Below are positions 2,270 to 22,138 of a stretch of DNA of 56,974 nucleotides, piece by piece (the first letter of the stretch is position 1; every line of letters starts with the position of its first letter). The stretch is from SAR86 cluster bacterium (GTDB lineage: Bacteria; Pseudomonadota; Gammaproteobacteria; Magnimaribacterales; AG-339-G14): positions 1 through 56,974 of the forward strand of contig JAOIOC010000006.1 in NCBI GenBank assembly GCA_028140145.1, read 5' to 3'. The notes under the pieces were generated by a model. The model did not search any database. It was not told the origin of the DNA and worked only from the letters and a program-made list of their open reading frames with translations. Position numbers and translations under genes: made by a program.

Positions 2270-3572
2270 TTTTAAAACTGAATCCCAACAATTTTGCTTG
2301 ATCGATGAATTCTGGAAAAGAAGTATTGATACACTCGACATTGGTAATTGTTAAACCTTCAGAAGATCTCAGCCCTGCTACTAACATTGTCATCGCAATT
2401 CTATGATCCCCATGCGAGTCAAATACTTCATCAGAAAAAATTCTATCCTTTTTGCCAATTATTTTTAGACTATCCTCATTTAATTGAACTTCAACATCTA
2501 GTTTTTGAAGGTTATTGATCATGATTGAAAGTCTATCGCTCTCTTTGTGCTTCAATTCTGATAAACCATTAAATTCTGATTCTCCTTCAATCAAGCTTGC
2601 AATCAAGAAAAATAATGGGAGCTCATCAATTAAATTAGGAACGATATCTTCCATTATTTTTGCTGGCAATAAGTCCGATGACTTTATGACTAAATCAGCC
2701 ACTTCTTCGTTTCCTAATTGTCTAATATTTGTAAGATCAATACTTGCATTCATATCTAAAAGACAGTCAAGAAAAGCTTTTCTAGTCTTATTTATTCCAA
2801 CATTTTTAATTTTTATTTCAGAATTTTCTGAAATTAAGCATGCACCTATGAAAAAGGCTGCTGATGAGAAATCCCCAGGAACTTCAATCTGCCCTGGAGT
2901 TTTTAAATCACTTCTCTCAATTTCAATAATCCCTTTCGAAGATGAAATATTAGCTTCAAAAGTTTTCATCATCCTTTCTGTATGGTCTCTAGTTGTATAT
3001 TTTTCTTGTACCTGAGTTTTACCTTCCGCATTTAATCCTGCCAATAAAATTGCAGATTTTACTTGCGCGCTTGCAATTGGCATTTTGAAAGTGATACCTT
3101 TTAAACCAGTTGAGGGACTAATTTTAAGAGGTGGATTTTCATCATTGGTCGCAGAAATTTTTGCTCCCATTTTTTGCAATGGGTCAATAATTCTCATCAT
3201 TGGCCGATTTGAAAGAGAGGCATCTCCGGTCAATGTGGATGAAAAGCTTAACGAGCTTAAAAATCCTGCAAAAAGTCTCATGCCTGTTCCAGAGTTACCA
3301 AAATAGAGATCTTTTTTTGGAGCAGACAATCCTTCTATGCCAGGAGAATCAAGAAAAATAGTAGAGCTTTTAACTTTGGATTCGATTCCAAGAAATCTAG
3401 CTACATTGAGCGAATTAAGAACATCTTCGCTATTTTGTGAGCCATGAATTTCCGTTTTTCCTTTGCTTAAAAGTCCAAATAAGATTGCTCTGTGCGAGAT
3501 AGATTTATCACCTGGAATGACAATCTCTCCCGAAAGGTTATTTTTCTTTGACGACTTTAAAGATGCAGTCAT
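2262..3572 (-). CDS. aroA: 3-phosphoshikimate 1-carboxyvinyltransferase (EPSP synthase)
   Basis: AroA joins PEP to shikimate 3-phosphate, the sixth step of the shikimate pathway. The protein has 436 residues. The N-terminal substrate motif PGDKSISHRA is at about residues 20-29, GNSGTGMR near residue 92, and KHKESDRL in the C-terminal half. The PEP-site stretch reads GTGMRLF, where E. coli has GTAMRPL. This resembles class II enzymes, which as a class are less sensitive to glyphosate, but that cannot be decided from the motif alone. The ATG directly follows the tyrA stop with no gap. In Pseudomonas tyrA and aroA are fused; here they are separate adjacent genes. Confidence 0.96.
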   Translation of the reverse strand: MTASLKSSKKNNLSGEIVIPGDKSISHRAILFGLLSKGKTEIHGSQNSEDVLNSLNVARFLGIESKVKSSTIFLDSPGIEGLSAPKKDLYFGNSGTGMRLFAGFLSSLSFSSTLTGDASLSNRPMMRIIDPLQKMGAKISATNDENPPLKISPSTGLKGITFKMPIASAQVKSAILLAGLNAEGKTQVQEKYTTRDHTERMMKTFEANISSSKGIIEIERSDLKTPGQIEVPGDFSSAAFFIGACLISENSEIKIKNVGINKTRKAFLDCLLDMNASIDLTNIRQLGNEEVADLVIKSSDLLPAKIMEDIVPNLIDELPLFFLIASLIEGESEFNGLSELKHKESDRLSIMINNLQKLDVEVQLNEDSLKIIGKKDRIFSDEVFDSHGDHRIAMTMLVAGLRSSEGLTITNVECINTSFPEFIDQAKLLGFSFKNG

Positions 3573-18426: not shown

Positions 18427-19497
18427 ATGCAATATTTAACGGACAATACTAGGATAAAAGGGCTTTTGGAGGTCACACCTCCAATAAAGCTAATTGACAA
18501 GTTGCCGCTGTCCTCAAAAGCATCAAAGCTGGTTTACGAATCAAGAAATGAATTATCCTCAATTCTTAAGCAAGAAGATGACCGTTTGTTAGTTGTAGTA
18601 GGTCCTTGTTCAATTCATGACCCAAAGGCTGCCATTGAATATGCAAAAAAATTAAAGCCACTTGCTGATGCTTTATCGAAAGAGCTCAAAATAGTCATGA
18701 GGGTTTATTTTGAAAAACCTAGAACCACAATTGGATGGAAAGGTTTGATAAACGATCCAGACATTGATAACAGTTTCAATATTAATAAAGGACTGAAAAC
18801 TGCCAGGAAACTTCTTTTAGAAATAAATGAATTAGGATTGCCTGCGGGAACAGAATATCTCGATATTATCACTCCGCAATATATCTCTGATTTAATAACT
18901 TGGGGGGCCATTGGAGCTAGAACCACTGAGAGTCAGATTCATAGAGAATTAGCCTCTGGTTTGTCTTGTCCTGTTGGCTTTAAAAATAGTACTAATGGTT
19001 CAGTAAAAGTAGCTGTTGATGCTTTAAAGGCCGCTAGTCATTCACATATCTTCCTCTCAATCACCAAAGAAGGTAAGTCAGCTATTTTCAACTCGGCGGG
19101 CAATCAAGATTGTCATGTCATCCTTAGAGGAGGAAGCGAGCCCAATTACAAAGACAAAGATATAAAAGAAACATCAAAAATACTTAAAGAAAATGGACTG
19201 ATAGATTCCGTCATGGTTGATATGAGTCATGGGAATAGCAGCAAACAATTCAAAAAACAGTTAATAGTAAATCAAGACCTTTGTAACCAAATATCATCTG
19301 GATCTAAAAATATCATTGGGGTTATGATCGAAAGCAATTTAATTGAGGGAAACCAAAGCTCCGATAAAAAAGATAAGCTCGAATACGGACAAAGTATCAC
19401 CGATGCTTGTGTGGGTTGGGAAGATACAGAAATTATGCTGAACTTGCTTTCTAGTGCTGTCAAAAATCGAAGACAGAATATGAAGGTTTCAGCATAA
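18427..19497 (+). CDS. aroG: 3-deoxy-7-phosphoheptulonate synthase (DAHP synthase, type I)
   Basis: This enzyme condenses PEP and erythrose 4-phosphate, the committed step of the shikimate pathway. The 356-residue protein aligns along its length with the AroF/AroG/AroH family: DDRLLVVVGPCSIHDP at about residues 52-67, VYFEKPRTTIGWKGLINDP, GARTTESQIHRELASGLSC, and DMSHGNSSKQFKKQ carrying metal ligands. Which aromatic amino acid inhibits it cannot be read safely, so the symbol marks the family only. The TAA is followed at once by the ATG of the DnaT-like gene, so the two are probably co-transcribed. Confidence 0.93.
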   Translation: MQYLTDNTRIKGLLEVTPPIKLIDKLPLSSKASKLVYESRNELSSILKQEDDRLLVVVGPCSIHDPKAAIEYAKKLKPLADALSKELKIVMRVYFEKPRTTIGWKGLINDPDIDNSFNINKGLKTARKLLLEINELGLPAGTEYLDIITPQYISDLITWGAIGARTTESQIHRELASGLSCPVGFKNSTNGSVKVAVDALKAASHSHIFLSITKEGKSAIFNSAGNQDCHVILRGGSEPNYKDKDIKETSKILKENGLIDSVMVDMSHGNSSKQFKKQLIVNQDLCNQISSGSKNIIGVMIESNLIEGNQSSDKKDKLEYGQSITDACVGWEDTEIMLNLLSSAVKNRRQNMKVSA

Positions 19498-20409
19498 ATG
19501 TCTGAAAAGAAATATACGTTTTCAAGAGAAATTGCTGAATCTCTTGGTATTACTGAAGCAATAATTCTAGAATTTTTTCAAAATAATCCAAAAAACTTTT
19601 CCTTGGATACTTTGAAGAATGAGTTTAGGTTCCTGGATGTTTCGCAAATAGAAAATTCTTATAAAAAATTAAATAATTTAGGCCTTTTCAAGATTATTCC
19701 TACAGAAGATAGTTCGCCCGAGCCAGATGAGACCATGAATTTTTATCCAAGTGATGATTTGATTAAGCAGGCGTGCAATTTAGGAATCGAAGAGGATTTC
19801 TTAGGAGATCAGTTACCAAGTTTTAATTTATTTTGGAAAGGAAAAGATTTAAAGCCACATTTAAAGGAGTCAAAATTTCTTCAATATGCTTTAAAAAATT
19901 GGAGGGAGAAGGAAAAAATTGAATATCAAGAATCGAAAAAAGTTCTTATAGATAGCAACTGGCGGCCTTCAGAAGATGCAATATCTATTCTCAAAAGTCT
20001 AGACATAAATGATTCTTTCTTTGAGAGCCTTTTACCAGAATTTATCTTATTTTGGAAAGAGAAAAGAATTAAATCCAATTCTTGGAATTCTACTTTTTTA
20101 AATCATGTAAAAAAACAATGGGCTAAAAAGAGCTTTAAGCTAGATAGTGGCAAAGAAAATCATCCTATGTCAAAAAACTGGGCCCCCAGTGAGGATTGCA
20201 TAAAAGTATTGGAAGTAACAAATATTCCCGTAGATTTTATAGAATCAAAATTACCTGAATTTAGACTTTATTGGATTGATGCAGGAGAAATTTCTGCAAA
20301 CTGGAATAATAAATTTATAAACTTTGTAAAAAATTCCTGGGAAAAGGATTCAAAAAAAAGTTCCAATATATTGGAAAGGCTTGCGAACACTGAATGGGCG
20401 AAAAAATAA
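19498..20409 (+). CDS. DnaT-like protein with three tandem DnaT domains (putative primosome/helicase-loading factor)
   Basis: This 303-residue protein was not recognisable as a named gene, but its architecture can be read. Residues 1-70 look like a winged helix. Three repeats of about 57 residues follow at 81-137, 154-210 and 227-283. Each has the pattern (N/W)xxPSEDxI, then FxxxLPEFxLxW, then WNxxFxxxVKxxW. The pattern matches the C-terminal single-stranded-DNA-binding domain of E. coli DnaT (WQPDADFI, F.AYWQAEG, W...), which occurs once there. Repeat 1 is the most diverged. The gene abuts the DAHP synthase stop and overlaps the lambda-P-like gene by 16 bases, a layout like dnaT-dnaC. A role in loading the replicative helicase is inference. 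Confidence 0.75.
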   Translation: MSEKKYTFSREIAESLGITEAIILEFFQNNPKNFSLDTLKNEFRFLDVSQIENSYKKLNNLGLFKIIPTEDSSPEPDETMNFYPSDDLIKQACNLGIEEDFLGDQLPSFNLFWKGKDLKPHLKESKFLQYALKNWREKEKIEYQESKKVLIDSNWRPSEDAISILKSLDINDSFFESLLPEFILFWKEKRIKSNSWNSTFLNHVKKQWAKKSFKLDSGKENHPMSKNWAPSEDCIKVLEVTNIPVDFIESKLPEFRLYWIDAGEISANWNNKFINFVKNSWEKDSKKSSNILERLANTEWAKK

Positions 20410-20981
20410 AAATTCCTAACAACCACATAGAGTTGGTTAATCTAATTTTTGCTCAATTGGAAATCACTTATCACAATCAATTTCATAAAGCTTTTAAGGA
20501 TGAAGTTAGTTTAAATTTAGCAAAACAATTATGGCTAAAAAAATTAGAAATATTCTCTCTGGATTTGATATTTGAAGCAATTGATGAATTAACTTCAAAA
20601 TCAAAATTTCTTCCGTCGTTAAGTCAAACTCTAGAAGAAATTAAAAACCATTATTTAAAAAAAGAAGGAATTAAATCTATTGAATCTGCTTTTGCTGAGG
20701 CTTGCTTAGGATCAGATGATCCTGAAAATTTCAAATGGTCACATCCTTTAGTATATGAAACAGCTAAAAATTTTGGTTGGGCCGATCTAAGACGCTCAGA
20801 AGAGAAAATAGGTTTTGAAAAGTTTCAATCTCTCATGTCCGATTCGATAAAAGATTATCTTAGCGATGCCAGTAATTTTTATCTTCCAGAGTTAAATGTA
20901 ACTGAGGAAAGAAAAACAAATTTATCTCAGCAAGAACAAATTCAACTCCTTGAAAAATTAAAAGAAAAGCATTCATATTGA
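20394..20981 (+). CDS. Lambda-P-like replication protein (putative replicative helicase loader)
   Basis: This 195-residue protein resembles phage lambda replication protein P, which binds DnaB and loads it at the phage origin. Residues 12-86 follow the lambda P pattern: a hydrophobic VNLIFAQLEITY stretch, a KQLWLKKL segment (P has RRQWVLAF), an alternating helix, and SKFLPSLSQTLEEIK (P has RPFLPSPGQF). A second helical block follows, SHPLVYETAKNFGWADLR (residues 116-133), and a charged tail. No Walker motifs are present, so it is not DnaC. Its start overlaps the DnaT-like gene by 16 bases. No integrase, capsid or other phage gene is nearby, so this looks like a resident, domesticated gene. 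Similarity is judged by eye. Confidence 0.72.
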   Translation: MGEKIKIPNNHIELVNLIFAQLEITYHNQFHKAFKDEVSLNLAKQLWLKKLEIFSLDLIFEAIDELTSKSKFLPSLSQTLEEIKNHYLKKEGIKSIESAFAEACLGSDDPENFKWSHPLVYETAKNFGWADLRRSEEKIGFEKFQSLMSDSIKDYLSDASNFYLPELNVTEERKTNLSQQEQIQLLEKLKEKHSY

Positions 20982-21067: not shown

Positions 21068-22138
21068 ATGAAATTTTTGAGCTCAATCTTAAAATCCATC
21101 CTTTCAGTATCAAATCTTCAATCTGCTGGAATATTCCTTTTTTTTGCTTCTATATGGATGATTTCCGGATTTTTTGTTGAGAATGAAATACCAACTAAGC
21201 AGATAGTTTTAGAAGAGACGACTGTTAGAGTGATGAAACAATCAGCACAACCTTTCTCAAGAAATATTATTCTAAAAGGCTCAGCAGAAGCAGACAAAAA
21301 TGTTCAACTTAGAGCAGAAACATCCGGTCAAGTAATTGGCCTCCCAGTCGCACAAGGTCAATTTGTCAAAAAAGGCAGTCCAATATGTCAAATCTTTGTC
21401 GGAGACAAAGACGAAGTGGCAAAAGAAGCTTCTTTGAATTACGAAACTGCCAAAAAACTTTTTGATGAGGGTCTCTATTCCAACAGTCAACTTCAAGCAG
21501 CAAAAGCAAGATACGAGCGAGCTTTCCAAGATCTAGATTTTGCCTCTGTTAAGGCGCCTTTTGATGGAATAGTAGATAGAATAGATCTTGATGTAGGTGA
21601 CTTCTTACCAAGACAAGGCATTTGCGCTACAGTTTTAGATCTAAATCCAATTCTCATTTCTGCAGAAATTTCTGAAAATGACATGTCAGAAATCTCTCTA
21701 GATTCTTTAGCAAAAGTTGAATTAAATAATGGAAAAGTCTTTGAGGGTGAAGTTAAATTTATTTCTTCATCAGCGAATCCACTTACTAGAACATTCAGAG
21801 TAGAGATATCTGTTCCTAATCCAGAATCAGATATAAAGGATGGTATGACAGCTGAGGTATCCCTCAAAGGTATAGAAAGAATTGCTCATTTGGTTCCGGT
21901 ATCCATTCTCAGGCTAGATAACCGAGGAAATTTAGGAATTAGGACGATCGATACGGATGGTCTCGTGGCTTTTAGAGAGGTCGACATTATTGAGGATACT
22001 GGTGTAGGAGCATGGATTACTGGCCTAGAGACTATTTCAACCATCATCACAGTTGGTCAGGATTATGTTTCACAGGGTGAAAAAGTTGGAATTGCCTTAG
22101 ATACAAGATTCGATAGCTTGAATGAAAGGATTAATTGA
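21068..22138 (+). CDS. RND efflux periplasmic adaptor (membrane fusion protein)
   Basis: This 356-residue protein links an inner-membrane RND pump to an outer-membrane channel. A single hydrophobic anchor lies at residues 19-37 with no lipobox. The biotinyl-lipoyl halves are at about 75-105 (VQLRAETSGQVIGLPVAQGQFVKKG, split across the motif) and 160-185 (ASVKAPFDGIVDRIDLDVGDF). They flank a short alpha-hairpin, and beta-barrel and membrane-proximal domains follow. The hairpin (about residues 115-155) is short, as in adaptors whose partner channel differs from TolC-AcrA types. It overlaps the permease gene by 17 bases. Substrate is not predictable. Confidence 0.9.
   Translation: MKFLSSILKSILSVSNLQSAGIFLFFASIWMISGFFVENEIPTKQIVLEETTVRVMKQSAQPFSRNIILKGSAEADKNVQLRAETSGQVIGLPVAQGQFVKKGSPICQIFVGDKDEVAKEASLNYETAKKLFDEGLYSNSQLQAAKARYERAFQDLDFASVKAPFDGIVDRIDLDVGDFLPRQGICATVLDLNPILISAEISENDMSEISLDSLAKVELNNGKVFEGEVKFISSSANPLTRTFRVEISVPNPESDIKDGMTAEVSLKGIERIAHLVPVSILRLDNRGNLGIRTIDTDGLVAFREVDIIEDTGVGAWITGLETISTIITVGQDYVSQGEKVGIALDTRFDSLNERIN

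Follow-up and report, generated by a model that had tools for sequence, protein, structure and literature searches.

How does SAR86 load its replicative helicase onto the chromosome? SAR86 is an abundant, uncultured bacterium of the surface ocean with a tiny, streamlined genome, and no description of helicase loading in it was found in the literature that we searched. A pair of overlapping genes raises the question. They lie in the window, by which we mean the whole stretch of 56,974 nucleotides that was analyzed (contig JAOIOC010000006.1 of assembly GCA_028140145.1). An earlier note, made from the letters of the sequence, proposed that the pair loads DnaB in a lineage that has neither DnaC nor DciA, and that it resembles the domesticated phage O/P genes known as DopC/DopE. 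The lambda P fold of the second protein, a census of other loaders and the synteny of the locus all support this proposal, with the function itself inferred from homology. We conclude, with a probability of about 0.8, that this pair loads DnaB onto the SAR86 chromosome and represents a domesticated system of the phage O/P type and of the DopC/DopE kind that replaces DciA and DnaC.

The source genome (1.10 Mb) is 71.5% complete, and claims of absence therefore depend on its relatives. We used 61 genomes of the SAR86 order, which fall into four families (f1 to f4; the window genome belongs to f1), and 185 genomes drawn from the class.

Organization of the locus

The two open reading frames have the coordinates and the overlap originally claimed for them, and all features described here are on the forward (+) strand. 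The gene for DAHP synthase, an enzyme of the aromatic amino acid pathway (18427-19497; PF00793, E = 8e-95), is the direct upstream neighbor and ends with no gap before the first gene of the pair (19498-20409), which encodes a DopC-like protein of 303 aa with DnaT repeats. The second gene (20394-20981) encodes a lambda-P-like, DopE-like protein of 195 aa. The 16-nt overlap between them (20394-20409) likely reflects translational coupling; in relatives the overlap ranges from about 11 to 120 nt. Downstream lies a gene for an HlyD-type efflux membrane-fusion protein (21068-22138; PF16576, E = 7e-23), which is also the neighbor in SAR86 relatives, whether the P gene is present or not. The four SAR86 families all have DAHP synthase upstream of the DnaT-repeat gene, as does a genome of another order (G105), where the gene order is DAHP synthase, DnaT repeats, P.

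The DnaT-repeat protein

The first protein contains three DnaT-type domains, as had been noticed from its sequence (PF17948, whole-protein E = 2.1e-52). The first domain (19735-19914; 40 bits) is the most diverged, the second (19948-20133) scores 71.6 bits, and the third (20164-20358; 75.7 bits) can be aligned with the ssDNA-binding domain of E. coli DnaT. The predicted structure has three three-helix bundles that match the complex of DnaT with dT10 ssDNA (4ou6) with a probability of 0.98. ssDNA binding by E. coli DnaT requires Tyr127, Trp128 and Lys143 (PMC4132743). On inspection of the alignment these residues map to conserved positions of the repeats with some substitutions, and the lysine is replaced in the second repeat of the window protein. 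E. coli DnaT forms filaments on ssDNA (PMC13377028), and tandem repeats would thus amount to a pre-assembled piece of such a filament. The threefold repetition, which had been thought unusual, turned out to be standard for the family: all 79 relatives from named genomes have three domains. Two domains are found in f3, f4 and part of f1.

The N-terminal domain (residues ~8-62; 19519-19683) had been described as winged-helix-like. AlphaFold2 does predict helices there (residues 10-16, 19-29, 36-42 and 48-61, at moderate pLDDT), so the helical character holds, but the resemblance to a winged helix is weak (pLDDT ~65-80, with low-significance matches to winged-helix regulators). Residues 7-64 also match the phage initiator family PHROG 11233 weakly (E = 0.01). 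Pairwise dN/dS of the protein within the genus is 0.10-0.18.

The protein ends in NTEWA (20386-20400), a variant of the motif (D/N)xSWA. The strict motif ends 58 of the 79 DnaT-repeat relatives versus 7 of 888 other ORFs. The C-terminus of lambda O, which binds P, ends in NTDWI, and a marine phage (L236:2274-3339) has an O-like HTH_36 protein without a DnaT domain that ends in TDRSWAE. We propose that (D/N)xSWA would be the O-side contact for P. As a separate observation, seven viral contigs (L221-L227, positions ~2869-3543) encode small DnaT proteins with two domains and a (D/N)RSWA-type motif at the end; in L221 the gene has Mu GemA and Mor genes (Pfam) for neighbors. No P turned up at these seven loci, and the small protein looks like a phage adaptor for a host P (DopE).

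The lambda-P-like protein

The sequence pattern that first suggested lambda P (VNLIFAQL, KQLWLKKL and SKFLPSLSQTLEE) is present in full, and no Walker motif is visible. The protein scores 26.8 bits against PF06992 (Phage_lambda_P), barely over the 26-bit cut-off, and matches PHROG 109 ('P-like helicase loader') with E = 5.4e-14. Searches of NCBIfam and PADLOC added nothing informative to the analysis. Alignment with lambda P by hhalign extends over 176 columns and includes the C-terminal tail (E = 1.3e-5). Structure agrees with sequence, and the expected structural match to lambda P was obtained. The three best PDB matches of the model in Foldseek are lambda P chains of the DnaB-lambda P complex (9oa1: E = 4.9e-4, probability 1.0), and the fourth is the loader G39P of SPP1 (1no1), which matches the N-terminal domain (TM 0.78 of target, rmsd 2.1).

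The model (mean pLDDT 90.9) has two helical domains, an N-terminal one (residues 9-90; 20418-20663; pLDDT >93) and a C-terminal one with a WSHP motif (residues 96-157; 20679-20864). These are followed by a flexible, more weakly predicted linker (residues 160-178) and by a C-terminal helix (20928-20978, with LEKLKEKHSY; residues 179-192 helical at pLDDT ~93) that aligns with the C-terminus of lambda P. We propose that this helix is a DnaB-docking tail. In the cryo-EM structure of lambda P with DnaB, a lasso-like segment of each P places a helix against the C-terminal domain and linker helix of DnaB; the authors tentatively assign the end of the lasso as the carboxy terminus of P (PMC6391071). 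Pairwise dN/dS within the genus is 0.05-0.09.

Distribution in SAR86 and its relatives

The DnaT-repeat protein was found in 54 of the 61 genomes of the order and in 28 of the 29 high-quality ones. P was found in 41 of the 61, all of them f1 or f3, a count that a profile search left unchanged. The pair, present in one copy per genome, is conserved in f1 and f3, and the locus is syntenic across all four families, a conservation that counts in favor of the proposal. One of the seven genomes without the DnaT-repeat protein is a single contig and 93% complete (G045, f4). The entire DAHP-DnaT-efflux neighborhood is missing from it, so an assembly gap is possible, if unproven, and we do not conclude that the DnaT gene was really lost.

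A scan of GTDB genomes, from which 80 of 485 stretches in total were kept, placed DnaT-repeat loci in SAR86, Cellvibrionales (Porticoccus, Spongiibacter, Gilvimarinus, Simiduia, SAR92 and Pseudohongiella) and Oceanospirillales (Thalassolituus, Bacterioplanes, Bermanella and Oleispira). Homologous pairs are present in named Cellvibrionales genera and in Thalassolituus-type Oceanospirillales. One record in the scan (L160), titled as a Klebsiella pneumoniae MAG, carries a DnaT-repeat gene of the Cellvibrionales type, and its label is therefore probably wrong.

Families without P and a P-type tail on their DnaT-repeat protein

P is absent from all 16 genomes of f2 and f4, where the slot between the DnaT-repeat gene and the efflux gene measures 0-56 nt. 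A broad P profile found none in eight f2/f4 genomes, and the same profile found P in a positive control (G248). Thus, SAR86 can do without P, which counts against the reading of the pair as its loader, and the pair is not universal in the order. Two other sets of candidates were rejected. Five Cellvibrionales-like loci (L160, L168, L177, L191 and L198) seemed to have lost P, which is elsewhere in their genomes (E ~1e-80), and a P-like match in G156 (E = 0.1) is an unrelated protein.

A tree of three proteins, which replaced one of DAHP synthase that had left f2 unresolved, has the topology ((f3,f4),(f1,f2)) and requires two changes in the presence of P; a clade of f2 and f4 is rejected (AU p = 3e-6). 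The tree alone does not distinguish gain from loss. P occurs in relatives outside SAR86, and we therefore take both changes as losses; if P is ancestral, it was lost at least twice independently.

The DnaT-repeat proteins of f2 and f4 end in sequences (LENLKKKHHI, LANLREKYKI) that resemble the ends of P in f1 and f3 (LFESLRKKHNV, LEKLKEKHSY). One reading of this resemblance is that at least two SAR86 lineages deleted the P-type loader and transferred the DnaB-docking helix at its C-terminus to the DnaT-repeat protein, which would give a single-protein, ATPase-free loader. We hold this idea tentatively, at somewhat less than even odds. The competing explanation is that the end of the f2/f4 protein, rich in lysine and leucine, resembles the P tail by chance or serves another partner, and that these families use another loader. 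The stretch in question is short, its regular expression was composed after the sequences had been seen, f4 has lost (D/N)xSWA as well, and the pattern describes one genome (G042) poorly. Of 307 distinct ends of genes in SAR86 loci, however, 37 match the pattern, and all of these belong to P (f1/f3) or to the DnaT-repeat protein (f2/f4). Moreover, the tail is on P in f1 and f3 and on the DnaT-repeat protein precisely in the two separate lineages that lack P, and a mini-P in G050 has kept the tail despite deletion of the C-terminal domain. A profile trained only on P ends from Cellvibrionales and Oceanospirillales places lambda P in the top 0.3% and the f2/f4 DnaT ends at null fractions of 0.1-11%; these ranks are individually moderate, which favors chance, and the null set contained the SAR86 P and DnaT ends themselves, which makes the test conservative. 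We regard the profile result as supportive, not decisive alone, and coincidence or another partner as rather unlikely. f2 and f4 may use a one-protein, ATPase-free loader.

Intermediate, reduced forms exist as well. The mini-P of G063, like that of G050, is missing the C-terminal domain, and in the marine phage described above the O-like gene is overlapped by one for a 148-aa mini-P (N-terminal domain and tail), the phage counterpart of these reduced proteins. In G220, which belongs to another family and is negative for DciA, one 385-aa protein (L114:730-1887) joins winged-helix-like segments to the P N-terminal domain and tail; it has no DnaT domain, and its P-type tail scores 26.6 bits, above the entire null set. 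Separately, the initiator of Stenotrophomonas phage StM171 (L127:2069-2935) consists of an N-terminal domain and one DnaT domain, and its end, PLSPDENRKRFAEAFALLK, resembles a P tail (null fraction 0.0045); the phage has no annotated P gene. The one-protein form may have a precedent in this phage. The StM171 initiator has the layout of the DnaT-repeat protein, and lambda O shares the C-terminal W motif; the first gene of the pair may derive from a phage O-type initiator.

Other helicase loaders and PriA

The expected lack of other loaders was borne out in the lineage. DciA (PF05258) was found in none of the 61 genomes of the order versus 147 of the 185 genomes of the class, and no DnaC-sized AAA+ protein (PF01695) is present among the 61; their PF01695 matches were assigned, on the basis of length, to DnaA, Lon, ClpX and RuvB. 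The absence of DciA is judged by sequence profile, and a highly diverged loader could still exist. In the class sample, the other genomes with a three-domain DnaT protein (G063 and G105) also have no DciA. Two genomes with a single DnaT domain (G136 and G159) have DciA; the DnaT gene of G159 has a prophage context, with genes for a repressor-like and a P-like protein next to it, and that of G136 adjoins a DnaB-like gene. In these genomes, DciA and the pair of DnaT-repeat and P proteins have mutually exclusive distributions. Species lacking dciA and dnaC have been reported in the orders of the named relatives, Cellvibrionales and Thalassolituus-type Oceanospirillales (PMC5109545).

The pair could instead be an adaptor for replication restart only, as E. 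coli DnaT is with PriA and PriB, with DnaB loading at the origin by itself, through DnaA alone or through some other loader. DnaT domains are indeed known from the PriA-PriB-DnaT preprimosome, and PriA exceeds the family cut-off in 44 of the 61 genomes. However, PriA falls below that cut-off in every one of the 15 genomes from the SAR86 genera g2 and g4, among them a single-contig genome that is 97% complete (G009), and most of these genomes keep the pair. PriA-dependent restart cannot, therefore, be the only role of the pair. In addition, the partner is a loader of the lambda P type and not a PriB-type protein, and DciA and DnaC are both absent. We consider a restart-only role improbable. The PriA scores throughout g2 and g4 also suggest that PriA-dependent restart has been lost there.

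That the genes are a prophage remnant, or phage-derived genes with no role in chromosome replication, is highly improbable: both proteins have phage homologs and similar pairs occur in prophages, but throughout the order the SAR86 genes lie at one chromosomal site, flanked by DAHP synthase and the efflux operon, as single copies under purifying selection and with conserved housekeeping neighbors, and no phage genes are present among the neighbors scanned.

A model for loading and its implications

We postulate that chromosomal loading by the pair works as follows. The DnaT repeats would serve as a covalently joined stretch of DnaT filament that coats the ssDNA exposed at the origin or where a fork has stalled, and the (D/N)xSWA end would hold P, much as the C-terminus of O does with P in lambda. 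P has no ATPase and, if it works as its lambda-type fold suggests, would dock on DnaB through its body and its C-terminal lasso helix, open the DnaB ring and thereby place DnaB onto the coated strand. In f2 and f4, which have no P body and a DnaT-repeat protein with a P-type tail at its end, that protein probably recruits DnaB directly.

Two points are new here: the DopC/DopE-type system extends to SAR86, and P was lost repeatedly while the DnaT-repeat protein apparently retained the P tail. If this is correct, a phage-derived O/P loader is found across a whole streamlined order, and its variants represent a loader stripped step by step, from a full P to a mini-P without the C-terminal domain to a docking tail on an ssDNA-binding protein. 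No known loader would then be smaller in design than a grip on ssDNA combined with a docking helix. Because the variants lend themselves to expression and parallel assays, they would show directly which elements suffice for loading.

Comparison with known systems

The pair most likely belongs to the DopC/DopE system by homology. In 2017, Brezellec et al. reportedly described DopC/DopE in Genome Biol Evol as a putative helicase 'matchmaker', a pair derived from phage O and P. We use the name on the basis of papers that cite that work and of the matching distribution. Both are adjacent pairs of the phage O/P type, found where DciA and DnaC are missing, with homologs in Cellvibrionales and Oceanospirillales; the second SAR86 gene is homologous to lambda P, and the host has neither DciA nor DnaC/DnaI. 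Unlike DopC/DopE, the SAR86 pair adjoins DAHP synthase, and f2 and f4 have no P (DopE) gene and a P-type tail on the DnaT (presumed DopC) protein.

The SAR86 system shares with lambda O and P the P fold, an alignment over the full length of P, the C-terminal tail, an O-type C-terminal (N)TDW motif and the overlapping O-P gene order. In contrast to lambda, it has DnaT repeats instead of the origin-binding architecture of O, and it is chromosomal and fixed rather than phage-borne. As in E. coli DnaT/DnaC, there is a DnaT ssDNA-binding domain and the gene for a loader adjoins; the SAR86 protein, however, has two or three tandem domains instead of one and a winged-helix-like N-terminal domain, and its partner is P-like, with no Walker motif, and not an AAA+ DnaC. 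G39P of SPP1 shares the fold of the P N-terminal domain, but has no significant full-length similarity, a different tail and a different partner helicase; a marine mini-P does score to PF11417, below its cut-off. DciA has a KH-type fold (PMC9912922). It is unrelated to the SAR86 pair in sequence and fold, yet the job that we propose for the pair is the same.
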